DNA from: Bacillota bacterium
Lineage (GTDB): Bacteria; Bacillota; Clostridia; Peptostreptococcales; Anaerovoracaceae
DNA length: 41,347 bases
Direction: 5' to 3'
NCBI GenBank assembly: GCA_017557505.1
Contig: JAFYYP010000011.1
Coordinates: forward strand, 1 to 41,347
Position 1 is the stretch's first letter, and each line of letters begins with the position of its first letter. The position numbers and the translations under genes were made by a program. The notes below the pieces were generated by a model. It was not told the origin of the DNA and searched no databases. It saw only the letters and a list, made by a program, of their open reading frames with translations. Shown here one piece after another: positions 2,571-28,320 of the stretch.

Positions 2571-3049
2571 AAGTTAGGTTCCTCCGGAATGGTTTTTTTC
2601 TTGCGCAGCTGTTTGAAGAAGTCCTTGAGAAGGCCGCTGCATTCTTCCTGTAAGACCCCCGCGGTCACTTCGACGCGGTGGTTGAGCCTTTCGTCTGTCA
2701 CGATACTGCGAAGCGAGACGCACGCGCCGGACTTCGGGTCGAGCGTGCCGATGTACAGTCTCTCGATGCGCGCGAGCACGATGGCCCCTGCGCACATGCT
2801 GCAGGGTTCCAGGGTCACGTACATGCTGCAGCGGGGCAGCCGCCAGCCGCCCAGAGTCTTCGCAGCCTGCCGGATGGCGTTCATCTCGGCGTGACAGGTC
2901 GGATCCTTGTCCGTCTCCGTCGTGTTGTGACCCCGGCCGACGATGCGGCCGGCCTGCACGATGACGGCGCCGATAGGCGCTTCTCCCAAAGAAGCCGCGA
3001 TCTTCGCTTCTTCCAGGGCCTCGCGCATATAGTCTTCGTGAGTATCCAT
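2567..3049 (-). CDS. tadA: tRNA-specific adenosine deaminase
   Basis: 160-residue zinc deaminase that converts A34 of tRNA-Arg(ACG) to inosine in the cytoplasm. The zinc site is complete: HAE (H53, catalytic E55) and PCSMC (C83, C86). The N-terminus (MREALEEAKIAASLGEAPIGAVIV) is standard for TadA, and the length is normal. It sits 28 bases downstream of the CLC gene and overlaps the next gene by four bases. The nearby tRNA-Arg has anticodon CCU and so is not its substrate. Confidence 0.95.
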   Translation of the reverse strand: MDTHEDYMREALEEAKIAASLGEAPIGAVIVQAGRIVGRGHNTTETDKDPTCHAEMNAIRQAAKTLGGWRLPRCSMYVTLEPCSMCAGAIVLARIERLYIGTLDPKSGACVSLRSIVTDERLNHRVEVTAGVLQEECSGLLKDFFKQLRKKKTIPEEPNL

Positions 3050-3077
3050 TTTGTTATTTTATCACAAACTGAACTGC

Positions 3078-4313
3078 CTATTCAAGGTGGAACTTATCCT
3101 GCTCGAGCCTTTGCGCCGTATACAGGCTGTAGTGACCCGAAAGCATGTACGACATGCTGCAGCAAAGCGCGAACAGTACGAGCCCCTGTCCGCCGAACAG
3201 TTCGAACGAGAGCAGGATGCTGGCGATCGGGCAGTTCGTGACCCCGCAGAACAGCGCGGTCATGCCGAGCGCCGCCGTAAAGCTCGGGTCGAGCCCCAGG
3301 AGGGGAGCCACGGTGCAGCCGAACGTCGCGCCGATGAAGAACGTCGGCACGATCTCGCCGCCTTTGAAACCGGCTTCGAGCGTGAGCGCCGTGAACACGA
3401 TCTTCAAAAGGAACGCAGCCGGGAACGCCTGCCCCGCGAGGGCTCTTGCGATCACCTCCGTGCCGGCGCCGTTATAGTCGCGCGTGCCCATCAGCGTGGT
3501 GAGGCCCGCGACGAGAACGCCCGCGACGAAAATGCGCACGTACGGATTCTTCAGGTACTGCGCGTACGTCCAGTCGATGCAGTGCAGCGTCTCCACGAAC
3601 AGGATGGACAGCAGCGCGCACAGTACGCCGAACACGAGCACGGCCAGCGCGGTGCGCAGCGTCAGATCCGGATAACCGGTGACGGTAAAGCTCGCGGCCT
3701 GGATGCCGAACTTCTCCGCGGTCACGCGGGCGACGATGGACGACAGCATGCACGGCAGCAGCACCGCGTAGTGCAGCGTGCCGTCCGCGACCTCCATCGC
3801 GAAGATGCCGGCCGCCAGAGGCGTGCCGAACAGGCCGGAAAAGCCCGCCGCCATGCCGCACATCGTGATGGTGCGCAGATCCAGATGGCTGAGTTTGAAC
3901 TGGCGGCCGATGAAGTTCGCGATCGAACCACCGATCTGCAGCGCCGCGCCTTCCCTGCCCGACGAACCGCCGGTAAGGTGGGTCAGCATGGAAGAGATAT
4001 AGATGAGCGGCGCCATGCGGATGGCAACGCCCTCCTCTTCCTTGACCGCCAGCAGCACGCGGTTGGTACCCAGGGGCTTCGTGATACCCGCCATGTGATA
4101 CATGGCGACGATGGCGAGGCCTGCCAGGGGCATCAGGAAAACGAGCCAGTCGTATTGCTGCCGCGCAGCCGTCGCCGCGTCGATCACCAGGCCGAACGCC
4201 GCCGCGATCGTACCGCAGATCACGCCCACAACAACAGCGTAGACGCACCATTGCAGCACGTCTACGGTTCTGAAAGATACGGTGTCTCTGAGTTTTTTCG
4301 TCTTAGGTTGCAT
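3078..4313 (-). CDS. CLC-family anion transporter, probably CLC-F type (fluoride/proton antiporter)
   Basis: 411-residue polytopic membrane protein of the CLC family. The selectivity and gating loop reads THLTGGSSGREGAALQIG (about 111-128, gating glutamate E121), and the second conserved segment reads GFSGLFGTPLAAGIFAMEV (157-175). From memory, ordinary EriC chloride exchangers have GREGP and FNAPLAG, while fluoride-exporting CLC-F proteins have GREGT..Q and FGTPLAG.IFALEV; this protein is much closer to the second set, and its short length without CBS domains also fits. No fluoride riboswitch is possible, because the start lies 3 bases after the upstream alr stop. It is in one operon with two alr genes and tadA. 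Substrate choice is inferred; CLC family membership is firm. Confidence 0.85.
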   Translation of the reverse strand: MQPKTKKLRDTVSFRTVDVLQWCVYAVVVGVICGTIAAAFGLVIDAATAARQQYDWLVFLMPLAGLAIVAMYHMAGITKPLGTNRVLLAVKEEEGVAIRMAPLIYISSMLTHLTGGSSGREGAALQIGGSIANFIGRQFKLSHLDLRTITMCGMAAGFSGLFGTPLAAGIFAMEVADGTLHYAVLLPCMLSSIVARVTAEKFGIQAASFTVTGYPDLTLRTALAVLVFGVLCALLSILFVETLHCIDWTYAQYLKNPYVRIFVAGVLVAGLTTLMGTRDYNGAGTEVIARALAGQAFPAAFLLKIVFTALTLEAGFKGGEIVPTFFIGATFGCTVAPLLGLDPSFTAALGMTALFCGVTNCPIASILLSFELFGGQGLVLFALCCSMSYMLSGHYSLYTAQRLEQDKFHLE

Positions 4314-6625: not shown

Positions 6626-6662
6626 ACTTCGTCTCCGGAAGAATTGCGAAAAGTTCAGTTTT

Positions 6663-6691
6663 AGTATATCTTTATAAAAGAAGGATTTCAA
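6663..6691 (-). promoter_or_regulatory. Promoter of the alr2-alr1-clc-tadA operon (TTGAAA-17-TATACT)
   Basis: On the minus strand TTGAAA (6691-6686), a 17-base spacer, and TATACT (6668-6663). The start codon of the first gene follows 37 bases later. The SDR gene is divergent; its own promoter must share these 83 bases, but I could not fix it (TATATC at 6665 or TATAAA at 6673 are possible -10 boxes). Confidence 0.72.
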
Positions 6692-6708
6692 CGACAGAGG
6701 AGGCATCC

Positions 6709-7428
6709 ATGGCGAAAATCGCAGTAGTCACAGGCGCGTCCGGCGGCATCGGATCCGCCTGCGCGAAGAAACTTGCCGAAGACGGCTATACCGTGGTCGT
6801 CCACTACTACCGCAATAAAGACGAAGCGGAGCGCATCGCAGAGCGTACCGGAGGGCTGGCTGTCCAGGCCGACCTGCGTTCGGAAGCCGCGGTGGACGCC
6901 CTCGTGGACGAAGTACTCGGCAAATTCGGACGCATCGACGTGCTCGTGAACAACGCCGGCGTCTCGCGCGTCAACCAGGTGCAGGACGTCTCGAACTACG
7001 AGTGGGACCTGCTGCAGGCCAGCAACGCGACGTCGACGTTCCTGATGACCCGCGCCGTGCTCCCCTCCATGATCGAAGCCAGAAGCGGTTCCATCATCAA
7101 CATCTCCTCGATGTGGGGCATCGCGGGCGGCTCGTGCGAGTCGGCCTATTCCGCGTCCAAAGGCGCCGTGATCGCCTTCACGAAAGCCGTGGCCAAGGAA
7201 GTCGGGCCTTCCGGCATCCGGGTCAACTGCGTGGCTCCGGGGGTCATCGAGACAGCCATGCTCGACCGCTACACCCCGCTCGAACTGGCTGCCTTGGCCG
7301 ACCAGACGCCGCTCGGACGCCTCGGCGTACCCGAAGACGTGGCCGAAGCTGTCGCCTTCCTGGCGTCGGACGCGGCGGGCTTCATCACCGGACAGATCTT
7401 ATCCGTCGACGGCGGATTTATCCTATAG
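6709..7428 (+). CDS. SDR-family NAD(P)-dependent oxidoreductase (FabG-like)
   Basis: 239-residue classical short-chain dehydrogenase/reductase. Visible are the cofactor motif TGASGGIG (8-15), NNAG (81-84), the catalytic set S133 or S134, Y147 and K151 (YSASK), and the usual C-terminal GQILSVDGG. It resembles 3-oxoacyl-ACP reductase FabG, but there are no fatty-acid genes around it, so the substrate is open. GAGGAGG precedes the ATG. The next gene starts 9 bases after the stop and its ribosome site overlaps the stop codon, so the two are co-transcribed, which is an odd pairing of a cytoplasmic reductase with a surface protein. Confidence 0.88.
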   Translation: MAKIAVVTGASGGIGSACAKKLAEDGYTVVVHYYRNKDEAERIAERTGGLAVQADLRSEAAVDALVDEVLGKFGRIDVLVNNAGVSRVNQVQDVSNYEWDLLQASNATSTFLMTRAVLPSMIEARSGSIINISSMWGIAGGSCESAYSASKGAVIAFTKAVAKEVGPSGIRVNCVAPGVIETAMLDRYTPLELAALADQTPLGRLGVPEDVAEAVAFLASDAAGFITGQILSVDGGFIL

Positions 7429-7437
7429 GAGAACCTT

Positions 7438-9216
7438 ATGAGTAAACGAATTCTGACATTATGCCTCGCGCTGGCGCTTTGCCTTTCTCTGATCCCGGCA
7501 GGCATCTATGCAGCAGAGCCTCAGTACACGGTCAAAGCGACGAAGACCAGCATCAAGGCCGGCGAGGTCGCCATGCTCGACAACGGTATGGGCAGCTACC
7601 TCGTGTTCGGCAAGTACGGATTGCTCGAATCCAAAGGTCTCGTGAACTCCTCCGGGAAGTCCCTGATGACCCGCACGGCCAAGAAAGGCGAAACGACGGA
7701 GGCGCTGGGCGACAACCTGCATTACGCGTCCTGCGATACGATGATCCTCGATCTGCAGCCTGTCATCCGCTACGCAAACTATACGAGCGACACGAAGTAC
7801 GTCAACACGAAGCCTTCCGACTACGCCTACGTTTACAACGACTACCAGTTCTTTTCCGCAACCGGAAAGACGGAGAGTTACGTGAGCGACATCCTCGCAA
7901 AATATGATAAAGTGCCCGTGGCCCAGATCTCCCTGCGCTCCGAGATCATGATCGGCAACAGCGGCCTCGTCACGTTCCAGGCGTCCTATCCGAACGGCGA
8001 CGACGTTTCGTACTATTTCGTGGATCTGGATGCCAAGAAAGTGCTGCTGAAGCAGCCTACGGCGGATTTCCCCAACCTGCTCTATACGGACTGCCCGCAC
8101 TACGAGCTCTCGAGCCTGAACGACAACCTGATCGCCTACAAGTACTATCACCAGGAGAAAGACGAGTACTTCGAGCTCTCGACGGTGATCGACGCGGCCG
8201 GCTACATGGACATCCAGAAGCGCCGTCAGCTGCCCATCGAAACGGACAAGTTCGACGAATGGGGCGACTTTAACGAAGGACTGGCATCGGTGAAGGACAA
8301 GAACGGAAAGTGGGGCTACATCACCCGCTACGGCGCGCTTTCGATCCCTTGCAATTTCGAAGAAGTCTCAGCTTTCCATAACGGCTACGCCCGCATCGCG
8401 GACGCGGACGGACGCTTCGGCTATATCGACAGCAAGGGCAAGACCGTCATCTCCCCGCAGTATTACAAGGCGGAGAACGCGGGCGACGGCCTGTTCACGG
8501 TCGGCAAGGTCGACAGCAGCAGCCTGCTGTACGGCGTCGTGGACGCCAACAATACCGAAGTCGTGCCGTTCGAATATGACAGCATCTCCGCAGTGTACAA
8601 GGATTACGCCTACGCCTGCAAGGACGGCTACCTGTATATCCTGAAGTTCAGCAAAAACCCCAAAGCGGGCAAGCCTTACCAGCCCATCTTCAAGGACGTG
8701 GCCGAGACCGACTGGTTCGAGCCCTATGTGCGCACGGCCTACGAAAACAACATCGTTGCCGGCGTCACGACGGAGTTCTACGCCCCGCTCAACAACCTGA
8801 AGCACGCGGAGATCATCGTCATGGTCGCGAACCTGCACAGCCGCCAGAAGGAAGATCAATACGATTTCCAGGCGCACAAGGCAGACGGAACCAACTGGTG
8901 GGACGCCTATCTCAACTATTGCAAGGCCGAAGGCATTACGGACGACCGCTACGACGCGGTGCTCGACGAATACGTGACCCGCAGCGAAATGGCGTATTAC
9001 TTCGCGAACGCGCTGTCTGCCGACTCCTACGCGGATAAGCGGTCTGTCACGTTCAGCGACGTGCCCGGCGACGTTTACGAGGAAGAGATCCACACGCTCG
9101 GCCGCGCCGACATCGTTACGGGCGATCCGTCCGGCACCTACCGTCCTGCGGACAACGTGACCCGCGCGGAAGCCGCGGTATTCGTCACGAACCTGCTGAA
9201 GATCATCAATAAGTAA
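7438..9216 (+). CDS. Secreted WG-repeat protein with C-terminal SLH domains (copy A)
   Basis: 592 residues. The signal peptide is about 1-25 (ending IYAAE). A family-specific N-terminal domain runs to about 270. WG/KWG-type beta repeats lie at about 275-400 (KWGYITRYGAL, RFGYIDSKGKTVI, LYGVVDANNTEVV). S-layer-homology repeats follow at about 418-470, about 480-530 and 537-592 (FKDVAETDWFEPYV, VTRSEMAYYF, TFSDVPGDVY, VTRAEAAVFVTNLL). SLH repeats bind pyruvylated wall polymers, so this is a wall-anchored surface protein. AGGAG overlapping the SDR stop sets the start. A convergent paralogue (copy B) and a shortened copy (C) follow. Function is unknown beyond surface location. Confidence 0.85.
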   Translation: MSKRILTLCLALALCLSLIPAGIYAAEPQYTVKATKTSIKAGEVAMLDNGMGSYLVFGKYGLLESKGLVNSSGKSLMTRTAKKGETTEALGDNLHYASCDTMILDLQPVIRYANYTSDTKYVNTKPSDYAYVYNDYQFFSATGKTESYVSDILAKYDKVPVAQISLRSEIMIGNSGLVTFQASYPNGDDVSYYFVDLDAKKVLLKQPTADFPNLLYTDCPHYELSSLNDNLIAYKYYHQEKDEYFELSTVIDAAGYMDIQKRRQLPIETDKFDEWGDFNEGLASVKDKNGKWGYITRYGALSIPCNFEEVSAFHNGYARIADADGRFGYIDSKGKTVISPQYYKAENAGDGLFTVGKVDSSSLLYGVVDANNTEVVPFEYDSISAVYKDYAYACKDGYLYILKFSKNPKAGKPYQPIFKDVAETDWFEPYVRTAYENNIVAGVTTEFYAPLNNLKHAEIIVMVANLHSRQKEDQYDFQAHKADGTNWWDAYLNYCKAEGITDDRYDAVLDEYVTRSEMAYYFANALSADSYADKRSVTFSDVPGDVYEEEIHTLGRADIVTGDPSGTYRPADNVTRAEAAVFVTNLLKIINK

Positions 9217-12645: not shown

Positions 12646-13809
12646 CTATTCGTAACTCATCGAACTCACGTTCGGGTTGATCAGGCAGATGTAGGTGTGG
12701 CCGGGAGGAAAGCGCAGGTCCCAGCCGTTGCTCAGCGTGTACGTGAACGAATCGTTGCGCGTATCTCTGGACCAGGTGATGTCCACGGTCTTGCCGCCGC
12801 AGAAAAACGTGCCGGAATGCTCACCGGTCGTGGCGACGCGCAGCCGTCCGACGTTGTCGAGCACCTGGCTCGTCGTATTCAGAACGAGCACGTTCGTGAC
12901 ACCGACCTGCTCTTCCGTGTTGCCGTCGATGTAATCCTGTCCGTGACCCTCGATCATGTACAGTTTCGTCTCCGGGTCATACGTGAAGATGTCTGTCTTG
13001 TAGTTCGAGAAGCGCACCGTGACGACGTTGGCGTCTGCGCCGAACTTCGCCGGATTCTCGTTGTTGAACGTCAGCGGGGCTTCGTAGCCTTCTTCGTGCT
13101 CGAGGCGGTAGCGGTTGCCCTCGACGAAATTCAGGATGTTCTCGCCGCTCGTCAGCATCGAATGCTCGTAGCCGCGGTTCGCCATTCTCCAGGCATCGCG
13201 CCAGAAGATGCTGGCGTCGTAGCCGCCGCGCACGCCGTCGAAGTGGGTGAGCCCCCAGGCGCTCAGGTCGTGGTAAGCCTCTTCGCTGCCGCCCGCGTGG
13301 ATGATGATCGCGTCGTAGCCGGTCGCCAGCTCGATGTAATACGGACGGATGGAGCGGATGCTGCCGAGGTTGCCGATGCCCTCCATCGTTGCGAAGAAGG
13401 CCTCCATGCGCGTGATCCCGCCTTCGGCGCAGACCTCGTAGATGATGTCCGCCTGGCTCACGCCCAGCTGCGGCAGGGCTTCGCGCTTGTTGTTGATCAT
13501 GACCGCATACGGCCGCAGACCGCTGAGATCCTTATCGGTCTTCAGGCCCGACAGGGGATTCGTGAAGTAGACCGGTTTGGGCTTTGCAGGTTCGATGACG
13601 ACGATCGCGTCTTCTGCGGTTTCCGCCGCTTCGCCCTCTTCGCCTTCTGCCGTTTCTGTACCCTCCTGCGGCCCTTCGACGACCTCTCCTTCCCCGGTCT
13701 GCAGAGCGTTCGGGTCGATGGACTCGTCTTTCGAGCAGCCGGAAAGCGCGAGGCCCGCCATCAGGGCGATGGCCAGAAGCCATACGATCCAAAGAGTTCT
13801 CTTTCTCAT
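12646..13809 (-). CDS. YerB-like DUF3048 lipoprotein
   Basis: 387 residues. The signal peptide ends in the lipobox LALSGC with the lipidated cysteine at 25. A low-complexity Glu/Gly-rich linker follows (to about 75). The DUF3048 domain comes next (YFTNPLSGLKTDKDLSGLRP, PYAVMINNKREALPQLGVSQ, ADIIYEVCAEGGITRMEAFF), with its C-terminal half (VGVTNVLVLNTTS, GKTVDITWSRD, PPGHTYICLI). The family (B. subtilis YerB) is widespread in Firmicutes; its role is not settled. The ATG at 13809 overlaps the cobS stop (ATGA) and has AAGGGGG upstream; the much longer frame running through cobS is spurious. Confidence 0.88.
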   Translation of the reverse strand: MRKRTLWIVWLLAIALMAGLALSGCSKDESIDPNALQTGEGEVVEGPQEGTETAEGEEGEAAETAEDAIVVIEPAKPKPVYFTNPLSGLKTDKDLSGLRPYAVMINNKREALPQLGVSQADIIYEVCAEGGITRMEAFFATMEGIGNLGSIRSIRPYYIELATGYDAIIIHAGGSEEAYHDLSAWGLTHFDGVRGGYDASIFWRDAWRMANRGYEHSMLTSGENILNFVEGNRYRLEHEEGYEAPLTFNNENPAKFGADANVVTVRFSNYKTDIFTYDPETKLYMIEGHGQDYIDGNTEEQVGVTNVLVLNTTSQVLDNVGRLRVATTGEHSGTFFCGGKTVDITWSRDTRNDSFTYTLSNGWDLRFPPGHTYICLINPNVSSMSYE

Positions 13810-14537
13810 ACTAACCCCCTTGATGAAAAGATAACGCAGACGAACAGGAATACCAGCTGGGTGACCTCGCAGGCGAGACCTAAAACGTCTCCTGTGATGC
13901 CGCCCAGAATATGTCTGACGCGCAGAACGAGCGCGACGCATGCGAACAACGCGATAATGGCCGCGATGCCGAACGGAATGCCGAGGAGGAAGCCTGCGGC
14001 GATGCACAGCAACGCGTCGAACGCCAGCACGCCCTTTGTTGCATTCTTGCAGAACAGTTCGGCCATGCCCTGCGCGCGGATGTACGGCGACCAGTTGGAA
14101 GCCAGCGCGGGCGTCACTTTCCCGACGACCGGAAACAGCAGCACGGCCTGCCACGGCGCGTAGTTCAGCAGAACGAGATAGGCAGCCGACGCGAAGATCA
14201 GACCGAGCACCCCGAAGCTGCCGCTGCGCGAATCCTTCATGATCTCGAGCATGCGCTCGGGGTCACGGCCGGAGAACAGCGCGTCGCAGGAATCGCCCAG
14301 ACCGTCGAGGTGCAGCCCGCCCGTGATCAGCAGATACGCCAGGAACAGGAACAGGCTGACGACCGGCATGGGCAGCCAGCGCGACAGCTGGAAGACGCAC
14401 AGAAGCAGGCCTCCCGAGATTCCCCCGACGAAGGGCAGCAGCGGAATGCCTTTGACGTAGCGCTCCTCGGTATATTCGATTTGCGGCACCGGGATCCGGG
14501 TGAAGAATCCCAGCATCAGGACAAAAGATTTCAGCAT
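13806..14537 (-). CDS. cobS: Adenosylcobinamide-GDP ribazoletransferase (cobalamin synthase)
   Basis: 243-residue integral membrane enzyme joining adenosylcobinamide-GDP with alpha-ribazole to give adenosylcobalamin. Family marks are FFTRIPVP at the N-terminus, GGLHLDGLGDSCDALFSG followed by MKDSRSGSFG, and GGITGDVLG near the C-terminus, with several membrane helices between. Length is normal. The start is the ATG at 14537, with GGAG 13 bases before it, which is weak. The frame stays open upstream for about 35 codons to the TAA at 14640-14642, but contains no ATG, GTG or TTG. It is separated from cobU by an inverted nitroreductase gene. No cobalamin riboswitch could be recognised in the leader. 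Confidence 0.93.
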   Translation of the reverse strand: MLKSFVLMLGFFTRIPVPQIEYTEERYVKGIPLLPFVGGISGGLLLCVFQLSRWLPMPVVSLFLFLAYLLITGGLHLDGLGDSCDALFSGRDPERMLEIMKDSRSGSFGVLGLIFASAAYLVLLNYAPWQAVLLFPVVGKVTPALASNWSPYIRAQGMAELFCKNATKGVLAFDALLCIAAGFLLGIPFGIAAIIALFACVALVLRVRHILGGITGDVLGLACEVTQLVFLFVCVIFSSRGLV

Positions 14538-14652
14538 GAACGGTTTGCGCTCCGGGGTCCTGTCGTCTAACGCATCCTCATCTTCGGCGTTCGCTGCGGT
14601 CTTGATGAGCCTCTTTAGACGCCACCCCTGCGCGCATGATCCTTATGCATTC

Positions 14653-14658
14653 ATTATA
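14653..14658 (-). promoter_or_regulatory. Possible -10 box for cobS
   Basis: TATAAT on the minus strand 115 bases before the cobS start. No convincing -35. It abuts the promoter of the divergent nitroreductase, so both may be controlled from the same short segment. Confidence 0.4.
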
Positions 14659-14681
14659 CCTTGTCTTCCATTCTTTTGCAT

Positions 14682-14710
14682 TTGCATTTTCCCGCGGGAA
14701 AGCAGATAAT
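14682..14710 (+). promoter_or_regulatory. Nitroreductase promoter (TTGCAT-17-GATAAT)
   Basis: TTGCAT (14682-14687), a 17-base spacer and GATAAT (14705-14710), 44 bases before the start codon. A second TTGCAT lies just upstream (14676-14681). Confidence 0.65.
14688..14701. promoter_or_regulatory. Perfect 14-base palindrome between -35 and -10 (candidate operator)
   Basis: TTTCCCGCGGGAAA reads the same on both strands and fills most of the spacer of the nitroreductase promoter, the classic place for a repressor to block RNA polymerase. I do not recognise it as a known operator. Confidence 0.6.
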
Positions 14711-14754
14711 GGAGGCAGAAAACATAACGATTTAGAATTACAAGGAGAGACGAC

Positions 14755-15282
14755 ATGGAATTTACAAAGCTGATCGAGACCCGCCGCAGCATCAGAAAAT
14801 ATGCTTCTGCGGCTTCCAAAGAAGATATCGAAGCCATCCTGACCATGGCGCAGCAGGCGCCGTCCTGGAAGAATGGCCAGCCCACGCGCTGCTACGCCGT
14901 CGTGACCCCGGAGATGCTGCAGAAAGTGAGCGAGGCAGGGCTGCCCGCCTACAACCAGAACAGCTCCAAAGGCGCCGCGCTGATCGTGACGACGTTCGTG
15001 AAGAACCTGTCCGGGTTCACGCCCGACGGCCCCGCCAACAAGGCCGGCAACTACTGGGGCGCCTACGACCTGGGCCTGCACGACGCCTACCTGGTGCTCG
15101 CGGCCTCCGAACTGGGCTACGACACCCTGATCATGGGCATGCGCGACGCAGAAGCCCTCAAGGAGATCCTGGGCATTCCCGACAATGAAGAAGTGATGTC
15201 CGTCATTTCCGTCGGAAAACGTGCGCAGGAACCCGCGATGCGCCCGCGGATGACCGTCGACGAGATGACGAAGTTCTTCTAA
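14755..15282 (+). CDS. Nitroreductase-family flavoprotein
   Basis: 175 residues, FMN-dependent NAD(P)H oxidoreductase fold. Visible marks are RRSIRKY at the N-terminus (phosphate/FMN contact), APSWKNGQPTRCYAVV (the APSxxNxQP segment), and IMGMRDAEALKEILGIPDNEEVMSVISVG near the C-terminus. The length suits the small clostridial nitroreductases. AAGGAGAG precedes the ATG. It stands alone on the plus strand between cobU and cobS, which suggested BluB, but BluB's RRDVR-type start and longer chain are absent, so I do not assign that role. The substrate is unknown. The palindromic promoter suggests control by a dedicated repressor. Confidence 0.88.
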   Translation: MEFTKLIETRRSIRKYASAASKEDIEAILTMAQQAPSWKNGQPTRCYAVVTPEMLQKVSEAGLPAYNQNSSKGAALIVTTFVKNLSGFTPDGPANKAGNYWGAYDLGLHDAYLVLAASELGYDTLIMGMRDAEALKEILGIPDNEEVMSVISVGKRAQEPAMRPRMTVDEMTKFF

Positions 15283-15298
15283 GTTTTTCAAGCAACAC

Positions 15299-15330
15299 AA
15301 AAGGCAGAGCCGCGAAGGCCCTGCCTTTTT
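15299..15330. terminator. Terminator between nitroreductase and cobU (both strands)
   Basis: AAAAGGCAG pairs with CTGCCTTTT (15299-15307 with 15321-15329), extended by GCC/GGC across a mismatch, loop GCGAA. T5 on one side and A4 on the other allow use by both convergent transcripts. Confidence 0.87.
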
Positions 15331-15337
15331 CTTGTCC

Positions 15338-15886
15338 TTATTTCACCTGCATGGGAATGCCGCAGACGGTCAGGTACACGCGGTCCGCGAGGGCCGCCGC
15401 GTGGCAGTTGATGCGCCCGAGTGCGTCGCGGTACAGGCGAGAGACCTTCGTGGCGGGCACGAGGCCGTCGCCTACCTCGTTCGTGACCATCACCAGGTCT
15501 ATGTTCACCGCCTTGCACAGCTCCGCGAGCGCGGAGAGTTCGGCCTTCACCTTTTCTTCGGCTTCGTCCGCCTCTTCCTGCTTCGGGTCGTCCCAGTCGG
15601 CGATGCGCGAAAAGTACGTGTTGTCGAGCAGAAAGCCCACGCAATCGAGCAGGATGGCCTTTTCCTGTCCCAGACTGATCCGGTCGAGATTCTGCCAGCG
15701 CTCTTCCGTGCGCCAGTGTTCCGGCCGCCTTGCCTGATGCCTCCTGATGCGGTCGTCCATCTCGCCGTCGGTATTCGTCGCCGTCGCGATGTACAGCACG
15801 GGGGCGTCCCCTGCCGCTTCCCTGATCAGTTTTTCCGCAAAATCGCTCTTGCCGCTGCGGGCGCCGCCGGTCACTAAGGTGATCAT
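15338..15886 (-). CDS. cobU: Adenosylcobinamide kinase / adenosylcobinamide-phosphate guanylyltransferase
   Basis: 182-residue bifunctional cytoplasmic enzyme that phosphorylates adenosylcobinamide and then attaches GMP. The P-loop GGARSGKS is at 7-14. The segment RIRRHQARRP carries the histidine that becomes guanylylated in the family. VTNEVGDGLVP is the usual CobU signature, and LDCVGFLLDN the second one. It overlaps cobT by four bases (ATGA), so the two are coupled. Length is normal. Confidence 0.95.
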   Translation of the reverse strand: MITLVTGGARSGKSDFAEKLIREAAGDAPVLYIATATNTDGEMDDRIRRHQARRPEHWRTEERWQNLDRISLGQEKAILLDCVGFLLDNTYFSRIADWDDPKQEEADEAEEKVKAELSALAELCKAVNIDLVMVTNEVGDGLVPATKVSRLYRDALGRINCHAAALADRVYLTVCGIPMQVK

Positions 15887-16959
15887 TTTTCATCCTTTCT
15901 GATGTCGATGCGGTACGTTTCGTCCATGGCTTCCTGCGCGAACGTGTGCATGTCGCGCATCATGGCGCAGGCGGATCCGACGATGTGGAACGCGAGCGGG
16001 CAGCCCGTGCCTTCGCCCAGACGCATGCGCATGTCGAGGATGGGTTCGAGCCCCAGTTCCTTCATGTTGAAGGCGTATGCGGGTTCTGCCGAGGCGTGCG
16101 AGGCGAACATGAAGTCCGCGCATTCGGGCTTGAGCCGGTACGCGCACAGCGCTGCCAGCGAGCTGATGACCCCGTCGATCACCATGGGCAGGCGGTAATA
16201 CGCCGCGCCGATGTAGCAGCCCGTGAGCGCCGCGATGTCGAAACCGCCGACCTTCGCGATGACGTCGATGGGATCGGACGGATCGGGCTTGTTCAGTTCC
16301 AGCGCTTTGCGGATGACTTCCTTTTTATGGATCAGGCCCTCATCCGTCAGGCCGCCGCCTTTGCCGACGACTTCATCTGCGGAAAGACCTGTCAGTGCCA
16401 TGCAGCACGCGCTCGTGGAACTCGTGTTGCCGATACCCATCTCGCCGTTGCCTAAAAGCTCATAGCCTTCTTCCTTGCAGATCCTTACCATGTCGATGCC
16501 GGTCAGGATGCCCTGCATGGCCTGCTCGCGGGTCATGGCGGGACCCTTCGCAAAGTTGTTCGTGCCGTCCGCGATGTGGCGGTCGATCACGAGGTCGCAG
16601 TCCACGCGGCCCTTGACGCCGATATCCACGACTTTCAGGTCCGTTCCGGCATAATGCGCCAGCACGCCCACGCCGGACACGCCTTCTGCTATGTTTTTCG
16701 TATGGTTGCGAGTCATCTCCTGGGGCGTGCCTGCCACGCCCTCCTCGACGACGCCGTTGTCCGCCGCAAAGACGAGCACACAGCGCTTTTCCGCCGTGTT
16801 GATCACCTTGCCGGTGATGCCTGCCATCTTGATGGCGATGGTCTCCAGACGCCCGAGGCTGCCCAGAGGCTTCAGCAGTCCGTCGTTGCGCTTCTTCGCC
16901 GCTTCAATCGCGGCTTCGTCCGCGCCGGCGATGCCGCTTAAATAATCGTTGAGAGTCAT
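15883..16959 (-). CDS. cobT: Nicotinate-nucleotide--dimethylbenzimidazole phosphoribosyltransferase
   Basis: 358 residues. It activates the lower-ligand base of cobalamin by transferring ribose phosphate from nicotinate mononucleotide. Family marks are KPLGSLGRLE near the N-terminus, VFAADNGVVEEGV, GEMGIGNTSSTSA, GGGLTDEG and the catalytic glutamate in RLGEGTG near residue 315. The length is typical. AAGGAAATCCT precedes the ATG. It follows the AEC permease by 17 bases and overlaps cobU, so it belongs to a run of minus-strand genes starting at glycerate kinase or before. Confidence 0.95.
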   Translation of the reverse strand: MTLNDYLSGIAGADEAAIEAAKKRNDGLLKPLGSLGRLETIAIKMAGITGKVINTAEKRCVLVFAADNGVVEEGVAGTPQEMTRNHTKNIAEGVSGVGVLAHYAGTDLKVVDIGVKGRVDCDLVIDRHIADGTNNFAKGPAMTREQAMQGILTGIDMVRICKEEGYELLGNGEMGIGNTSSTSACCMALTGLSADEVVGKGGGLTDEGLIHKKEVIRKALELNKPDPSDPIDVIAKVGGFDIAALTGCYIGAAYYRLPMVIDGVISSLAALCAYRLKPECADFMFASHASAEPAYAFNMKELGLEPILDMRMRLGEGTGCPLAFHIVGSACAMMRDMHTFAQEAMDETYRIDIRKDEK

Positions 16960-21703: not shown

Positions 21704-23506
21704 CTACAGATAATTCAGCGGGTTGTACGGCGTGCCGTTGTAGCGCACTTCGAAGTGGCAGTGCGGGCCCGTAGACCAGCCGGTGCTGCCGACCAGGCCG
21801 ATGTTCTGGCCCTGATAGACGTTTTCGCCCGCGCTCACGAGGATCTTGCTGCAGTGCGCGTAATACGTCTCGTACAGTCCGCCGTGGCTGATGATGATCA
21901 GGTAGCCGTAGCTGCCCTTCCAGCCGGCGAACGTGACGGTGCCTCCGTCGCTTGCGTAGATCTTGGAGCCGTACGGGGCTGCGAGGTCGACGCCGGTGTG
22001 CATCGTGCCCCAGCGCATGCCGAACGGCGACGTGAGCGTGTAGCTGTACAGCGGGTACTGGAAGTTGCCCGTGCCCTGCGCCACCGGGACCGGCTTCGTG
22101 CCGCGATACTGGACCTCGGCCACAGGTTCGGTGATGCGGGTCGTAGACACGACGGTGCGGTTGACCTCTTCGCCGTTGACCCTTTCGACCGTCGCAACGA
22201 TCAAATCCGTACCCTTGCGGCCTTCGCTCTTGACCGACGTCTCGCCTTCGTACATGGACGCGTTGTCGATGTACTGCACGTCGTAATCGACAGATTCGGT
22301 GTACGTCGCGGTCTCGGTGCTGCGGATCGTGATGCGTGGCGCATCACTGGCAGTTTCGCCGCTCTGCAGATATTTCTTGGCTTCCGAGCGGTCCCAGATG
22401 TCGCCCAGCAGGCAGAAGACGGGCCGCACTTCGACCTTCTGGTCGTACGTGACCTCGTTGATGACCGCGTTGCCCTCTGTCGTCGTGTATTCCGTCTGGA
22501 TCTCGTTTAAGATGCTCTTCGCGACGTTTTCGCTCTCGAGCAGGACGGTCTCTTCGTCGTCGAGGCAGATGGTGTAGGCCTCGACCTGAAGATCCTTCAT
22601 ATACGTGATCGTATTCAGGATGTCTTCGTCGCTGTCCACGTCAATGTTGAATCCGACGACCTTGTTGAACGACATATCGCGTTCGACGTCCAGCGAAACG
22701 TTGGCTCCGGTGGCCTTCGACAGCTTGTCGCCCAGCGCGTCGATCGTCTTGTAGACGTCGTCCACGCTGCGGGCTGTACCGAGCAGTTTGCCGTGGTAGC
22801 TGTACTCATAGGCCGTACACGACTTGACGAGCACGACCGAAGCCGCGCCGACCACGACGAGCATGGCAAAAACGGTCACCAAAGACCGCTTGTGCTGTTC
22901 GATCCAGTAGCGCACGTCCCAGAGCAGGTCCCAGATATAATAGAAGAAGCTGCCCAGATAGTAGGCTGCCGCGATCACCGCGTCCGCGACGATCAGGGCG
23001 AGGTCCCACAGGTCCGCACCGAAGCGGGTCACGAAGTTCCAGGCGCTGGCCCAAAGGCCGTCCCAGCCGTCGAGCACGGGACCCCAACAGTCGTCCACGC
23101 AAGCCGCATAGGCGTTGTGGCGTGCCTCTTCGGTCATCCACTCCTTGCCGGCCAGTTCTGCGCGCGTCTGCTTCAGCTGGCGCACGAGACGCCACGTCCG
23201 GTGCAGGAAGCCTTCGCCGACGGGGCGGTACGAAGCGATCTTTCTGGCCGCGGCGGAAGCTGCCGCGTACACGCGTCTGTGCTCAGACTCGTGATGCGCT
23301 TCTTCGCTCCGCTTCTTGCCCTTGCGCCTGTAGTGCGCTTCCTTCTCTTTTTCCAGTTCCTGCGCTTTTTCCCGGAGCTCGTCCTCGAAACGGTCTTTGT
23401 CGACGGTCTCGGCGACCTTGTCGAGCTTGCTCTGCAGCAGCTCGTCCAGCTCCTTGCGGACGCCTTCCTGGTCTATATTCTGATGTACGGCTTTTTCGTC
23501 CGTCAT
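21704..23506 (-). CDS. Membrane-anchored M23 metallopeptidase with G5 domain
   Basis: 600 residues, cell-wall endopeptidase. Residues 1-75 are charged and helical (coiled-coil-like, cytoplasmic). 100-200 is Trp-rich and partly hydrophobic. A membrane helix is at about 208-228. An extracellular region of about 240-380 has no named domain. A G5-like domain (about 395-470) precedes the M23 domain (about 485-600), with zinc ligands H503 and D507 (HTGVD) and H582xH584 (HCH), plus H551. It starts 2 bases after the DnaD-gene stop. The long cytoplasmic N-terminus is unusual for this class and could link wall cutting to an inside partner. Related G5/M23 proteins act in growth or sporulation. Confidence 0.88.
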   Translation of the reverse strand: MTDEKAVHQNIDQEGVRKELDELLQSKLDKVAETVDKDRFEDELREKAQELEKEKEAHYRRKGKKRSEEAHHESEHRRVYAAASAAARKIASYRPVGEGFLHRTWRLVRQLKQTRAELAGKEWMTEEARHNAYAACVDDCWGPVLDGWDGLWASAWNFVTRFGADLWDLALIVADAVIAAAYYLGSFFYYIWDLLWDVRYWIEQHKRSLVTVFAMLVVVGAASVVLVKSCTAYEYSYHGKLLGTARSVDDVYKTIDALGDKLSKATGANVSLDVERDMSFNKVVGFNIDVDSDEDILNTITYMKDLQVEAYTICLDDEETVLLESENVAKSILNEIQTEYTTTEGNAVINEVTYDQKVEVRPVFCLLGDIWDRSEAKKYLQSGETASDAPRITIRSTETATYTESVDYDVQYIDNASMYEGETSVKSEGRKGTDLIVATVERVNGEEVNRTVVSTTRITEPVAEVQYRGTKPVPVAQGTGNFQYPLYSYTLTSPFGMRWGTMHTGVDLAAPYGSKIYASDGGTVTFAGWKGSYGYLIIISHGGLYETYYAHCSKILVSAGENVYQGQNIGLVGSTGWSTGPHCHFEVRYNGTPYNPLNYL

Positions 23507-23508
23507 TC

Positions 23509-24747
23509 TTATCCTTCTTGATTCATCAGCAGGCGCATCTTGTCCTTATAGCAGGGACAGCGGCTGCCGTCTTCGAGAAAGCCGGTATCCCGGCACTGTT
23601 TGCATGTGTAGGCGGTATCCAGCGCGGATTCGCTGTAGCCGGCCTGTTTTAATAGCAGCGACTTTTCTCTGCGCAGCGATTCGATCTTCGCCCGCTGCTC
23701 TGCGGCAGCCTCTTTGCCGGGCCCGCCCATCAGCATGTAACGGGAAATGTTGAACCGGCAGGTACGAAGATCTTCCTGGATCTGCTCCATGCGCGGGATC
23801 TTCGCATAGATCTTGCGGCGTATGGCTTCCGTGCGGGCCGCGTTTTCCTGTCTGTCCTTTTCGTACAGTTTTTCGATACGCACGGTCAGCAGCTCCGCCT
23901 CGGTCTCGGGCGTTCTGCCGCTCTCCTTGTGCCAGGCGGTCAGCACGGCGTCCACGTAGTTGATGTTCGGATTGGAGATGCCGGCGGTCCTGCCGCAGGC
24001 CTCCTTGATCTTGTTCAGGTCGAATCCGTAATCGTCGAACCACTTGTTCATGATGCGCTTTTCTTCTTCCGTCGCGCTGCGGGTAAAGCCCAGTTCGCGG
24101 AAGATCTGGCGGTACAGATCGTAGTGGCGGTCGATGCCCTGCAGGTATTCCTCCACCTGTGCCGGGCTCGAAAGACCCTTGGATTTCCAATCTTTTAAGA
24201 CGGTGCCCACGTAGCGGCACTTCGTGCTCCTGCGCTTCGCGGCGCAGAATTTGTAGCCGCACAGGATGAATTCCGGGGTCATGGCGTATTCGGACAGCCA
24301 CGAAGCGACTTCCTCGGGTTCCCTGGCCTCGAGCATGCGGCCGGCGGACGCCTCGATGTCGCGGTACAGCCGCGCAAGAGCCTTGTCGTCCATGCGGGCA
24401 ACAGCTTTCGGCTCCGCCGAGGGCGCGCGTGACCCGAACACTTCTTCCCTGAGATTTACGAGCTCGATATCGTATGCGCCGCCTTCCGGATCGGTATACA
24501 CGCGGCGTACGACGCCGCGGCTCTCCCAGTAGGCCCAGCATTCGGCCATTTTCTCCGGGTCAACGCCGGCAGCCTTCGCGACGATGCGGTCGTCTGCGGG
24601 CATGTTGAACTGAGCGTACATGGCCGCGACCAGGTACGCCTTGACGAATTCGCCCGGAGCGGACGCCATATATTCCGACAGGAACAGGTTTTCGACCTGC
24701 GTATCGTACAGATAGTAATTGGAAACGTTCTGTTTGCTGTATTCCAT
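23509..24747 (-). CDS. DnaD/DnaB2-domain primosome protein fused to a DnaC-type helicase-loader N-terminal domain (no AAA+)
   Basis: 412 residues. About 25-105 is a winged-helix-like start; about 120-195 and 211-280 are two DnaD-type helical domains (second with EEEKRIMNKWFDDYGFDLN and NINYVDAVLTAWHKES). From about 305 on, the text is that of the N-terminal helicase-binding part of clostridial DnaC loaders: RRKIYAKIPRMEQIQEDLR, then a zinc knuckle with C382, C385, C397, C399 (TCKQCRDTGFLEDGSRCPC), then KDKMRLL. In normal loaders an AAA+ ATPase follows, but here the chain stops 13 residues after the last cysteine, and the next gene is a peptidase. It lies 6 bases after dnaB, so it probably helps place the helicase. 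Confidence 0.82.
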   Translation of the reverse strand: MEYSKQNVSNYYLYDTQVENLFLSEYMASAPGEFVKAYLVAAMYAQFNMPADDRIVAKAAGVDPEKMAECWAYWESRGVVRRVYTDPEGGAYDIELVNLREEVFGSRAPSAEPKAVARMDDKALARLYRDIEASAGRMLEAREPEEVASWLSEYAMTPEFILCGYKFCAAKRRSTKCRYVGTVLKDWKSKGLSSPAQVEEYLQGIDRHYDLYRQIFRELGFTRSATEEEKRIMNKWFDDYGFDLNKIKEACGRTAGISNPNINYVDAVLTAWHKESGRTPETEAELLTVRIEKLYEKDRQENAARTEAIRRKIYAKIPRMEQIQEDLRTCRFNISRYMLMGGPGKEAAAEQRAKIESLRREKSLLLKQAGYSESALDTAYTCKQCRDTGFLEDGSRCPCYKDKMRLLMNQEG

Positions 24748-24753
24748 GTCTCT

Positions 24754-26103
24754 CTAGTCGGGAATGCTGTTCTCCGGATAGTAGTTCGTAAATTTCGTAA
24801 AGTTCGGGATCCACGTCAGGATGACGGTATCCGTCTCGCCGTTTCTCTGCTTGGCGATGATGACTTCGCACTTGTTGTCCGGCTGTTCGTCCTGGCCTCT
24901 GTAATAATCTTCTCTGTGCAGGAAGATGACCACGTCGGCGTCCTGTTCGATGGCGCCGGAATCGCGCAGGTCGGACAGAATCGGTCTGCGGGGGTGCGCC
25001 TGCTGCTTTTCAGAAGCTCTGGAAAGCTGGGACAGCACGACGACCGGGCACTCCAGTTCTCTGGCCAGCTGCTTTAAGTAGCGGGAAATGTTCGACACTT
25101 CCTGCTGACGGCTCTCACTGCGGATATCGGCGGACATGATCTGCAGGTAGTCCACGATGACGAGGTCGATCTTGCGGCCGGCGTTGATGCGTCTGCACTT
25201 GTTGCGCATCTCCATGACGCCGATGCCGGGCGTCGCGTCAATGATGATATCCTTTCCGGACATGCGCTCGATGGATTCCAGCACGTCGTCGAGCTCTTCG
25301 TCGGTCAGATTGCCGCTCTCGAGCTTCTTGCTGTTCACGCGGGCATCCATGGCGATCAGACGGTTGCCGAGCGCCTCCTTGGACATTTCCAGCGAGAAGA
25401 TGACCACGCGCTTGTCGCCCTTCATGGCCACGTTCTGGGCGATGTTCAGGGCGAGCGCGGTCTTGCCCATCGAAGGACGGGCCGCGATGATGATCAGATC
25501 GGACTTGTGCAGTCCGTTCAGCTTGTTGTCGAGGTCTTTATAGTGCGTGGCGATGCCGGGCATGGCGCCGCCCATTTCTTTTGCGGTCTTGATCGCTTCG
25601 AGGTTGACGCTCAGAACGTCCTTCAGTTCGGAATACTCCGTCGTCTGCTTCGTCTTCGCGACGTCGAAGATCGTGGCTTCCGCAAAATCGACGACCTTAT
25701 CGGCCTCGAGCTTCTCCTCGTAGCTCTTCTCCACGATGTTGCCGGCGGCCGTGATCAGACGCCGCAGCATGGCTTTCTCCGCCACGATGCGTGCGTACTG
25801 CACCGCGTTGGCCGTCGTGGGGACGACCGTGGACAAAAAAGCGATATAAGCCCGGCCGCCTACGGCTTCCAGGCTGTTTCTGCGCTTTAAGCTTTCCGAT
25901 ACGGTCACCGCATCGATCGGCTCGCTGCGCTGGTACAGATCCATCATGCTGCGGAAGATCTCTTTGTGGCTCTCGGGATAAAAGTCGTCCGGCTTCAGGA
26001 TCTCCGAGACCGCGAAGAACGCGTCCTGATCGATCAGCACCGCGCCGAGCACGCTCTTTTCCGCCTCGTCGCTGTGAGGCGGGATGCGTTCCATCTGGCT
26101 CAT
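24754..26103 (-). CDS. dnaB: Replicative DNA helicase DnaB
   Basis: 449 residues from the ATG at 26103. Hexameric 5'-3' helicase at the replication fork. The N-terminal DnaB domain opens with PHSDEAEKSVLGAVLID. The RecA-like ATPase has Walker A ARPSMGKTALALN, EMSKE, Walker B LVIVDYLQIM and the arginine-finger region ISRYLKQLARELECPVVVLSQLSR. GGAAGG stands 8 bases before this ATG; a GTG three codons earlier (26112) is less well placed. It follows rplI by 18 bases, the conserved Firmicutes order gdpP-rplI-dnaB. In B. subtilis nomenclature this gene is called dnaC. Confidence 0.96.
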   Translation of the reverse strand: MSQMERIPPHSDEAEKSVLGAVLIDQDAFFAVSEILKPDDFYPESHKEIFRSMMDLYQRSEPIDAVTVSESLKRRNSLEAVGGRAYIAFLSTVVPTTANAVQYARIVAEKAMLRRLITAAGNIVEKSYEEKLEADKVVDFAEATIFDVAKTKQTTEYSELKDVLSVNLEAIKTAKEMGGAMPGIATHYKDLDNKLNGLHKSDLIIIAARPSMGKTALALNIAQNVAMKGDKRVVIFSLEMSKEALGNRLIAMDARVNSKKLESGNLTDEELDDVLESIERMSGKDIIIDATPGIGVMEMRNKCRRINAGRKIDLVIVDYLQIMSADIRSESRQQEVSNISRYLKQLARELECPVVVLSQLSRASEKQQAHPRRPILSDLRDSGAIEQDADVVIFLHREDYYRGQDEQPDNKCEVIIAKQRNGETDTVILTWIPNFTKFTNYYPENSIPD

Positions 26104-26121
26104 ACTCTGCACCTTCCGCGT

Positions 26122-26568
26122 TTATTCTGTCTCTACGTCGACCTTGCACTTCGCCTGAACGCCGGGGAACAGCTTCAGGACGACTTCCGTGATGCCCGTC
26201 TGCTTGATGGGCCCTTCGAGGTCGATCTTTTTCTTATCCAGTTCGATGAGGAACTCTTTCTGAATGGCTTCCGCGATGTCTTTCGACGTGACCGCGCCGA
26301 ACAGCCGTCCGTTCTCGCCGGCCTTGGAGATGACCTTGACGGTCTTGGATTCGATCTTCGCCTTGATGTCTTCGGCCACCTGCTTATCGATGGCTCTCTG
26401 GGCTTCGATCTGCTCTCTCTTTCTTTCCAGGACCTTCATGTTGGCGGGCGTCGCTTCCATCGCCAGCTGTCTGGGGAACAGCATGTTGCGGGCATAACCG
26501 TCGCTTACTTTCACGACCTGTCCTGCTTTTCCCTGACCCTTGACGTCTTTCAGTAAAATGACCTGCAT
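26122..26568 (-). CDS. rplI: Large ribosomal subunit protein bL9
   Basis: 148 residues, standard length. It begins [19 protein letters not shown] and keeps the N-terminal RNA-binding domain signature ([13 protein letters not shown]), the long central helix ([13 protein letters not shown]) and the C-terminal domain ([17 protein letters not shown]). It lies 15 bases after gdpP and 18 before dnaB. Confidence 0.97.
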
Positions 26569-26583
26569 GCTATCGGTTCCTTT

Positions 26584-28320
26584 CTATAACAATCCTGTCT
26601 CTCTCAAAAATGCTACGACCTTTGCGATCGCTTCCTCCGGACCGTCTTCCACCTGTGCGGCGGCGATGTTCAGATGGCCGCCTCCGCCGAGTTTTTCCAT
26701 GACGGTCTGGACGTTGATCTGTCCGGACGAACGGGCCGAGACCATGGTGCGGTCCGCCCCTCTGCCCGCCGCGAACGCCGTATGCACGCCCCGTACGTCC
26801 AGCAGTTCGTCGGCAGCCTGCGCCACCAGCACCTGCATGGCGGGATCGCTGTCCTTGGTGTAGGCGACCGCGATGCCTCCGCCGAGGATCTCGGCGTTGG
26901 CCATGATGTTGCTCTTTTTCTTGACGAAGTCCAGCTTGAGCTTAAAGAAGCTGCGGACGTTGGCGTTGTCCGCGCCCATGCGGCGCAGCCAGCTTGCCGC
27001 GTCGAACGTGCGCACGCCCGTATTGATGGCGAAGCCCTTCGTGTCGACCGTGATGCCCGCAAGCAGCGCGTCGGCGTCGAACTTGTCGATGTCGCCCTTG
27101 TCCACCGCGTACTGCAGCAGCTCGGTCACGAGTTCGCTCGCGGAAGACGCGTACGTTTCCATGTGCATCAGCGTCGGGTTTTCGACGGCGTCCTTCGACT
27201 TCCTGTGGTGGTCGATGACCGCGATGCGCTTCACCTGCTGCAGGATCTGGGGACACTCGGCGATGGCCGGGATGTGGGAGTCCACCATGATGACCAGCGT
27301 GTTCTCCGTCGCGAGCTGGCACGCCTTCTCGCCGCTGATAAAGCTGTAGCGGCCGGTCTTGAGCGCCTCGCCGTAGATGATGTCGATCGCCTGGCCGACG
27401 TTGTCGAGGATGATGTCCGTCGGAACGCCGGAGCTCTTCGCGAACGTGTACATGCCGATGGCTGCGCCGATGCTGTCCATGTCAGGCCGCGCGTGACCCA
27501 TGATGAACACGCGGTCAGAACTTTTGACCAGCTGCATCAGAGCGTGCGCCATGATGCGGGCCCTGCCCTTGTTGCGCTTTTCCACGGTGGGCAGCGATCC
27601 GCCGAAATACTCGATGTCGCCGGAATCGTGCTTGATGACGACCTGGTCGCCGCCTCTGCCGAGCGCCAGATCCATGGCCTCTTCGGCCAGAAGCTGGATG
27701 CGGGAGAAGCTGCCGCCGCCGGTGCCGATGCCAATCGACAGAGACGTCGGGAAATCCGCCTGCGTCTCGACTTCGTGCATCTGGTTGATGATGGGGAACT
27801 CGCTGCGTCTCTGTTCGTCCAGATACTTCTGTTCGAACTGCGCATAGTAGCGGTTATTGCGGACGCGCGTGACCGCCGCGTCGATGTACTGGGTCCAGGC
27901 GCGGACCTTCTTGTCGATCTCCGCGCTGATAGAGGACTGTTCCTCGGCGGGGGAGCTGGCCAACAGCTCGTCGTAGTTATCGATATTGATCAGGGCGATG
28001 CAGCTCTGATTGTCTTCATTCAGTTTTTTCAGGCGGTCGATCTCCGCTGCCGCGGCTTCGTCGGTAACGGTGCCATCCTCGTTCAGGCCGGCGTCGTCCA
28101 AGTGCTGGCGGATGACCGATTCCTCATACTGTCTGATCTTCTCTTCCGACGTCGTGTCCAGCAGCTTCGTATGGACGAGACTGAGGGCGCCGACCAGGAT
28201 AAACGCGCCGATGCCCGCATAGACGTTCAGCCACAGGATAACGAGGCAGAGCAGGATCATCGCGACCATGTCGATGCGGGTAAACTGGCGGACCAGATTA
28301 TGTAGAAACTTACTGTTCAT
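26584..28320 (-). CDS. gdpP: GdpP-like cyclic-di-AMP phosphodiesterase lacking the PAS domain
   Basis: 578 residues. Two membrane helices occupy about 17-50. A degenerate GGDEF-like region (about 105-240; ALINIDNYDELL, SLSIGIGTG) follows. The DHH domain holds the metal ligands H276, D280, D282 (GHARPDMDSIG), D347 and DHH at 370-372. DHHA1 ends the chain with GGGGH. It hydrolyses c-di-AMP to pApA in this family. B. subtilis GdpP has about 659 residues, with a heme-binding PAS domain between the membrane helices and GGDEF. Here only about 50 residues, mostly charged helix, fill that space, so the sensor is missing. The start is ATG at 28320, with GAAAGGAAAG upstream. Confidence 0.9.
   Translation of the reverse strand: MNSKFLHNLVRQFTRIDMVAMILLCLVILWLNVYAGIGAFILVGALSLVHTKLLDTTSEEKIRQYEESVIRQHLDDAGLNEDGTVTDEAAAAEIDRLKKLNEDNQSCIALINIDNYDELLASSPAEEQSSISAEIDKKVRAWTQYIDAAVTRVRNNRYYAQFEQKYLDEQRRSEFPIINQMHEVETQADFPTSLSIGIGTGGGSFSRIQLLAEEAMDLALGRGGDQVVIKHDSGDIEYFGGSLPTVEKRNKGRARIMAHALMQLVKSSDRVFIMGHARPDMDSIGAAIGMYTFAKSSGVPTDIILDNVGQAIDIIYGEALKTGRYSFISGEKACQLATENTLVIMVDSHIPAIAECPQILQQVKRIAVIDHHRKSKDAVENPTLMHMETYASSASELVTELLQYAVDKGDIDKFDADALLAGITVDTKGFAINTGVRTFDAASWLRRMGADNANVRSFFKLKLDFVKKKSNIMANAEILGGGIAVAYTKDSDPAMQVLVAQAADELLDVRGVHTAFAAGRGADRTMVSARSSGQINVQTVMEKLGGGGHLNIAAAQVEDGPEEAIAKVVAFLRETGLL

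Follow-up and report, generated by a model that had tools for sequence, protein, structure and literature searches.

The DNA analyzed here, called the window throughout, is the 41,347-nucleotide stretch of contig JAFYYP010000011.1 from a Bacillota genome that was assigned, from named relatives, to the Anaerovoracaceae, a family of bacteria that often live in the gut. A gene on its minus strand encodes, in one open reading frame of 412 residues ending in a stop codon, a DnaD-type replication protein joined to the N-terminal domain of a DnaC-type helicase loader (DnaC-N). The preliminary description of this DNA gave the correct coordinates for the gene and omitted its strand. The gene, its parts and its neighbors, the replicative helicase gene dnaB among them, are listed in Table 1.

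The DnaD portion is readily recognized. Pfam DnaB_2 (PF07261, the DnaD C-terminal domain) matches it in two stretches with an E value of 1.7e-27, and TIGR01446, which describes the same domain, matches with E 3.4e-17, both above their cut-offs. A DnaD-like N-terminal domain is present as well, residues 15-281 matching the separate DnaD protein of genome G062 with E 7.6e-41. A sequence match to PDB entry 8ojj covers profile positions 118-211 only. Residues ~210-275, which appear to be the second DnaB_2 stretch of the Pfam match, have a mean pairwise identity of 0.62, the highest among the regions compared.

Beyond this portion, residues 290-404 align with positions 8-122 of the 330-position NCBIfam profile for clostridial DnaC (NF005304/PRK06835) with E 1.5e-23, and the matched part is the portion that lies ahead of the AAA+ domain. 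The score of 83.5 bits falls below the whole-protein cut-off of 215, as expected, because the first third of the profile alone is present. This match upholds the preliminary description, which had called the C-terminal part DnaC-like on the strength of a KIP..EQIQEDLR segment, a C-x2-C-x11-C-x-C knuckle and a chain end 13 residues after the last cysteine. All of these are there: the helical motif AKIPRMEQIQEDLR is found in the protein, and the knuckle reads C382-x2-C385-x11-C397-x-C399. An AAA+ domain with Walker A and B motifs is absent from the 412-residue chain, as judged from the sequence and from alignment with full-length DnaC; two Walker-like strings in the DnaD part occur by chance. 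The DciA domain PF05258 is not among the Pfam matches of the protein. As read from its sequence, then, the protein consists of DnaD followed by the first third of a clostridial DnaC, stopping before the AAA+ domain. We place it in the DnaD family, as a member with an added DnaC-N domain, and not among the DnaC/DnaI loaders, since their defining AAA+ domain was tested for and is absent.

A structure prediction for the full-length protein had a mean predicted local distance difference test score (pLDDT) of 79.8 and a predicted template modeling score of 0.33, and the domain arrangement is therefore not predicted. In a fold search with this model, DnaD (9a5c_B) was the sole match at E<=0.001 (3.2e-4 over 200 columns), with the DnaD-like 2zc2 in third place. 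The isolated DnaC-N tail was modeled with a mean pLDDT of 95.3 as long helices, the knuckle and a C-terminal helix. Its fold search against the PDB gave no informative match; no DnaI structure was among the matches listed, nor among the matches of a PDB sequence search with the protein. Clade-specific changes in DnaB were seen at two positions only.

The similarity to DnaC is common to the relatives of this protein, as seen in an alignment of 17 fused proteins, in a profile search of 61 genomes and in the best-scoring 80 of 212 named relatives. The four cysteines are invariant in all 17 aligned proteins and, in the alignments, across fused and full-length DnaC proteins alike. The profile built from the 17 proteins (A1) was run on 58 genomes of the family and three of its sister family (f9), a set that deliberately took in eight family genomes without any DnaC-model match. 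It matched in 53 of the 61 genomes and in 46 of 46 at >=90% completeness and <=5% contamination, f9 and partial matches counted. A row-by-row check of span, which covers these 58 of the 349 family genomes, found the fusion end to end of the profile in one frame in 46. The remaining family genomes have it in three frames (G122), in two pieces on two contigs (G049) or as fragments (G210 and G276), or are the eight with no match, namely, seven of the eight DnaC-model-negative genomes plus G229, with completeness of 60-92%. Among the best 150 rows of an order-wide search, those of the family reach the profile end, apart from the early-stopping G233 and G258; the row of G352 begins late in the profile.

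The named members include Anaerovorax, Sinanaerobacter, Bacilliculturomica and Emergencia, Sinanaerobacter being placed in the Anaerovoracaceae, Peptostreptococcales. All of the best-scoring 80 have the knuckle, and their chains end 6-24 residues after it. Six-frame searches of the available flanks (at most 3 kb on each side, and shorter near contig ends) gave no AAA+ match at any of the 80 loci, with control outgroup loci positive in 20 of 20. In five close pairs, the ratio of nonsynonymous to synonymous substitution rates is 0.15-0.36 for the DnaC-N part and 0.02-0.30 for the three DnaD regions, synonymous change being near saturation in several pairs. The DnaC-N part is under purifying selection and is constrained somewhat less than DnaD. 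The split copy of G122, a single-contig genome, lies at L074 (G122:C1:1522000-1536000), positions 6646-7969 on the minus strand, in frames of 63, 261 and 128 residues; it reflects either frameshift errors or a real split.

The gene order gdpP, rplI, dnaB, fusion is found in 17 of 17 family loci, counting the split copy of G122. A gene-sized gap separates dnaB from the fusion in eight of the 18 family and f9 loci measured. A new neighbor gene acting there as replacement loader was rejected, the gap gene being purA in the seven loci scanned; the eighth locus is L079, outside the scan. At both f9 loci read, dnaB and the fusion are on opposite strands, an arrangement shared with the outgroups. In all 20 outgroup loci of the order, dnaD is followed directly by a full dnaC on the same strand, an adjacency also reported for CD3653-CD3654 of Clostridioides difficile (PMC5204125; this and the other papers below are cited from excerpts). 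Given that dnaD adjoins a full dnaC in these loci, the neighbors would have fused and the motor half would have been lost. In a tree built on GdpP, RplI and DnaB of 34 loci, the Anaerovoracaceae and f9 separate from the rest with a bootstrap of 100, and the DnaD tree puts them together with support of 89/97. A DnaD tree under a simpler model has weak inner branches and does not recover the Anaerovoracaceae as one group. The simplest reading is that dnaD and dnaC probably fused once, losing the AAA+ half, in the common ancestor of the two families. Several candidates were set aside: the apparent in-frame dnaD-dnaC fusions of G403 and G405 are separate adjoining genes with a stop between them, and the long frames of G363 and G382 are ordinary fusions running on into a neighboring open frame. 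A phage source was rejected too, a scan of viral_contigs with A1 giving 98 pattern matches and none confirmed.

A separate, complete DnaC, whose existence the preliminary description had left as a possibility, was sought in the rest of the genome. The window's genome (2.2 Mb in 56 contigs, 87% complete) yielded none by NF005304 or by PF01695. NF005304 ranks the fusion gene first, then DnaA (E 8.2e-11), and the rest at E 5e-4 or worse; the four PF01695 matches are DnaA, a RarA-type protein, PhoH and a shikimate dehydrogenase/kinase frame. Across the family, 341 of 349 genomes have some NF005304 match at E<=1e-6, and none passes the full-length cut-off. Among 99 relatives, 35 pass it, all of them within the 39 genomes from the order's other families; the f9 genomes G067, G078 and G089 and one f7 genome (80% complete) make up the remaining four of the 39. 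In a sample of the class, 318 of 391 genomes pass, and those below the cut-off include incomplete genomes, diverged DnaC proteins and the families f50, f16 and f78 described below.

The PF01695 search covered 28 genomes, and its matches were identified in three of them: the window's genome, G207 and G193, the last two being single contigs of 3.4 and 1.7 Mb. Several of the other 25 have clear IstB or DnaC-like proteins. At E<=0.001, G207 has two matches and G193 four, each of them DnaA, PhoH, Lon or a sigma-54 activator; the weaker NF005304 matches of these two genomes (E 8e-5 or worse, besides the L226 protein) were left out of the identification. An AAA+ part encoded elsewhere in the genome was accordingly rejected, the identified matches in these three genomes being other ATPases. 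DciA was rejected as a replacement loader, with none over its cut-off in 28 genomes (two weak matches at E 0.2 and 0.5) and seven of 14 control genomes positive. A DnaC-type motor is absent from the genomes searched.

We think it probable that the gene encodes a single-chain, ATPase-free helicase loader that arose by fusion of dnaD and dnaC with loss of the AAA+ half. The DnaD part would oligomerize and, at the melted origin, bind DnaA and single-stranded DNA (or, at stalled forks, PriA), and the fused DnaC-N helices and zinc knuckle would grip the C-terminal (RecA) tier of DnaB. The tail may then hold or crack the DnaB ring, which would close on the single-stranded DNA. Release would proceed without ATP hydrolysis by the loader, probably triggered by DNA or primase engagement. 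Loss of the motor would cost a lock and its timing, which direct coupling to DnaD might replace. DnaB binding, ring opening, DnaA and single-stranded DNA binding and the release step are all steps that we infer.

A loader of this kind is plausible because of published data on Escherichia coli and on C. difficile, which is in the same order as the window's genome. The isolated helicase-binding domain of E. coli DnaC, which has no ATPase, loads DnaB at about half of wild-type efficiency and also stimulates fork unwinding (PMC8213410). When the Walker motifs of the C. difficile loader are mutated, the helicase is still bound and is apparently loaded and/or activated but no longer restrained, and ATP seems to serve a "locking" function; the wild-type loader itself lowered helicase activity (PMC5204125). 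In DnaI, the N-terminal domain makes most of the helicase contact, ~1,197 versus 548 square angstroms (PMC3791466).

The preliminary description had offered, beside a fused ATPase-free loader, a split system with its AAA+ part encoded elsewhere. In such a system, another AAA+ protein (DnaA, RarA or a DnaC-like ATPase of a mobile element) would act in trans, with the DnaC-N domain as its docking site. The fused loader is the better supported of the two, and the split system, which drew no support from G207 or G193, seems to us unlikely. Proteins that could fill the role do exist: DnaA occurs in each of the three genomes checked, as the top AAA+ match, the window's genome has the RarA-type AAA+ protein, and DnaC-like proteins, most of 250-315 residues, occur in a number of family genomes. 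These DnaC-like ATPases and IstB-like ones of similar size, some of which reach 100-124 bits with the DnaC model, also weigh against a family without a loader motor; they are presumably mobile. Against the split system, the PF01695 matches of the two single-contig genomes are DnaA and unrelated ATPases, no sign marks DnaA or RarA as a replacement, and purA accounts for the one added gene ahead of the fusion at the seven loci scanned, a comparison that took in no genes farther away; among new loaders of other kinds, the search was for DciA only.

It is quite unlikely that the helicase loads itself or uses some other loader, the tail then only bringing DnaB close to the origin, as a tether or brake, and opening no ring. 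Self-loading of the C. difficile helicase has been discussed (PMC5204125), and Bacillus subtilis DnaD is termed a co-loader, not a loader (PMC3791466), both of which would suit a tether. Against one, all aligned fused lineages retain the DnaC-N helical segment as well as the knuckle, more than a tether alone should keep; the argument is weak, since a tether also needs a binding surface. An assembly or annotation artefact, in which a frameshift hides the AAA+ part, is scarcely conceivable. Frameshifts do occur in such data, as the three frames of G122 indicate, but no family genome among 349 passes the DnaC cut-off, the next gene in the window starts only two bases after the fusion, and the best 80 of the 212 named loci agree in their end point and in the lack of a six-frame AAA+ match in the available flanks; we count the artefact as refuted.

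The ATPase-free fused architecture recurs outside the Anaerovoracaceae and f9. In family f50, none of 11 genomes passes the DnaC cut-off (seven of them are <90% complete), and eight have the DnaC-N part in frames of 405-458 residues. Six extracted proteins (405-450 residues) are DnaD fused to DnaC-N and end just past the knuckle. At least two f50 genomes (G771 and G598) have an IstB-like ATPase of 250-258 residues. The family stands apart from the Anaerovoracaceae and f9 in both DnaD trees, and, against a separate origin, a single clade of all three is not rejected (P value of the approximately unbiased test, 0.283); an independent f50 fusion is likely, not proven. Two f16 genomes (G629 and G792; 0.9 Mb, 99-100% complete) have fusions of 613 and 609 residues, and G537, of the same genus, has a separate DnaD (479 residues) and DnaC (304 residues, with Walker A). 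In f78, four of five genomes have fusions of 560-603 residues, and the fifth (G717) has DnaD alone at that place. The fusion loci of f16 and f78 gave no AAA+ match in a run in which the controls L285 and L293 were positive. A DnaC elsewhere in these genomes is probably absent, their best DnaC-model matches in the class search, at E 2e-16 to 3e-14, being below the cut-off. Both families are outside the trees, and their independence is argued from their being other families, from the separate genes of G537 and from a different DnaD make-up. Convergence is the likely source of the architecture in f50, f16 and f78. We lean slightly toward the view that bacterial helicase loaders can, in nature, dispense with their AAA+ motor and that at least four lineages of clostridia do so, among them the Anaerovoracaceae with f9, f50 and some f16 species.

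At the G717 locus (L289, G717:C7:4000-11000; the genome is 99% complete), no DnaC-N match lies within the 7 kb read, and the best DnaC-model match of that genome has an E value of 4.3e-19. Long DnaD-type proteins of ~470-635 residues with extra matches to the DnaD C-terminal domain occur in several clostridial families (L243-L246, L283-L290 and L293). Frames of ~500-635 residues in f14, f19, f52 and f70 were rejected as fusions, being DnaD with extra C-terminal-domain matches beside a full DnaC. Two f53 loci were rejected also, since they keep a separate DnaC-like protein (L291, 2724-3596, and L292, 2227-3348, both plus strand), in which the AAA+ match is none or weak (E 4.5e-8) and the cysteine spacing is altered; this is possibly a decaying motor. 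The L226 protein of G207 (G207:C1:685500-690500, 2271-3353, minus strand; 360 residues) looks by eye like a helix-turn-helix replication protein of a mobile element. Its C terminus has DnaC-N-like helices without the cysteine knuckle and matches the DnaC model weakly (E 4.1e-5), so that the domain may here have a further use without a motor.

Lambda P and DopE are helicase loaders outside the AAA+ class and are likened to the fusion as non-AAA+ loaders only, apart from sequence relation. DciA (DUF721), an ATPase-free loader, would be alike if the fused protein is one, and the fusion is without a DciA domain. DopE and DciA are named as the loaders of bacteria without AAA+ loaders (PMC13326638). 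The nearest known system is that of clostridial DnaC (NF005304/PRK06835; CD3654) and DnaD (CD3653), the same two proteins in the same region with dnaB (PMC5204125), the DnaC-N helices and C-x2-C...C-x-C knuckle of which align with the fusion. In contrast to that pair, the fusion is one chain, and the AAA+ domain is missing from it and did not turn up in the genomes examined. The DnaD/DnaB/DnaI system of B. subtilis shares the DnaD domains and a zinc-type helicase-binding domain, but DnaI is a separate protein that retains its AAA+ domain. B. subtilis DnaB contacts DnaD and the DnaI C-terminal domain (PMC13326638), and that domain is gone in the fusion. The N-terminal domain of E. coli DnaC is stated to be nonhomologous to that of DnaI (PMC3791466). 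The E. coli helicase-binding domain is a laboratory fragment, whereas the fusion retains in nature just the corresponding part, joined to DnaD.

DNA replication depends on helicase loading, and the ATPase is usually treated as the core of the loader. The present family, searched in 349 species, has retained on DnaD the half that binds the helicase and shows no full DnaC; the same appears to have happened in other families. Where dna[CI] has been domesticated, it is as a rule found in every species of the clade, and 49 species, which may include a member of this family, apparently lack both dna[CI] and dciA (PMC5109545). No report on a DnaD-DnaC fusion or on helicase loading in the Anaerovoracaceae was found among the titles and abstract beginnings of open-licence PMC papers. 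The findings suggest that the family starts DNA copying without a dedicated loader motor, which makes it a natural experiment on what that motor is for. DnaA, DnaD-DnaC-N and DnaB are a suggested minimal set for reconstituting loading in vitro.

Two of the conserved neighbors upstream are presumably rplI and a DHH/GdpP-like gene. On the other side, the M23 peptidase named in the preliminary description is borne out by Pfam, which adds a G5 domain, and an M23 gene follows the fusion in 14 of the 17 family loci.

Table 1. Features of the window around the dnaD-dnaC(N) fusion gene (a tilde marks approximate residue boundaries)
Feature	Position	Strand	Basis
dnaD::dnaC(N) fusion gene, 412 residues	23509..24747	-	Stop codon 23509-23511; open reading frame, Pfam/NCBIfam matches and alignment
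DnaD N-terminal domain, residues ~16-104	24436..24702	-	Match to separate DnaD of G062; predicted helices and beta hairpin; boundaries approximate
DnaD C-terminal domain (Pfam DnaB_2), residues 129-201	24145..24363	-	Pfam; PDB 2zc2 and 8ojj by sequence
Helical DnaD C-terminal region, residues ~210-275	23923..24120	-	Alignment; identity/selection comparison; boundaries approximate
DnaC N-terminal (helicase-binding) domain, residues 290-404	23536..23880	-	NF005304 positions 8-122 of 330; tail model
Four-cysteine knuckle C382-C385...C397-C399, presumed zinc site	23551..23604	-	Sequence and alignments; zinc inferred
dnaB replicative helicase, presumed partner, immediately upstream	24754..26112	-	PF03796 E 3.8e-103; PF00772 E 3.9e-36
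Conserved neighbor, presumably rplI	26122..26568	-	Synteny
Conserved neighbor, presumably DHH/GdpP-like gene	26584..28320	-	Synteny
M23 peptidase with G5 domain, next downstream, 2-base gap	21704..23506	-	Pfam

Farther along the minus strand of the window, positions 13806-16959 hold a run of cobalamin-assembly-like genes (cobS-, cobU- and cobT-like), recognized by eye from their translations.
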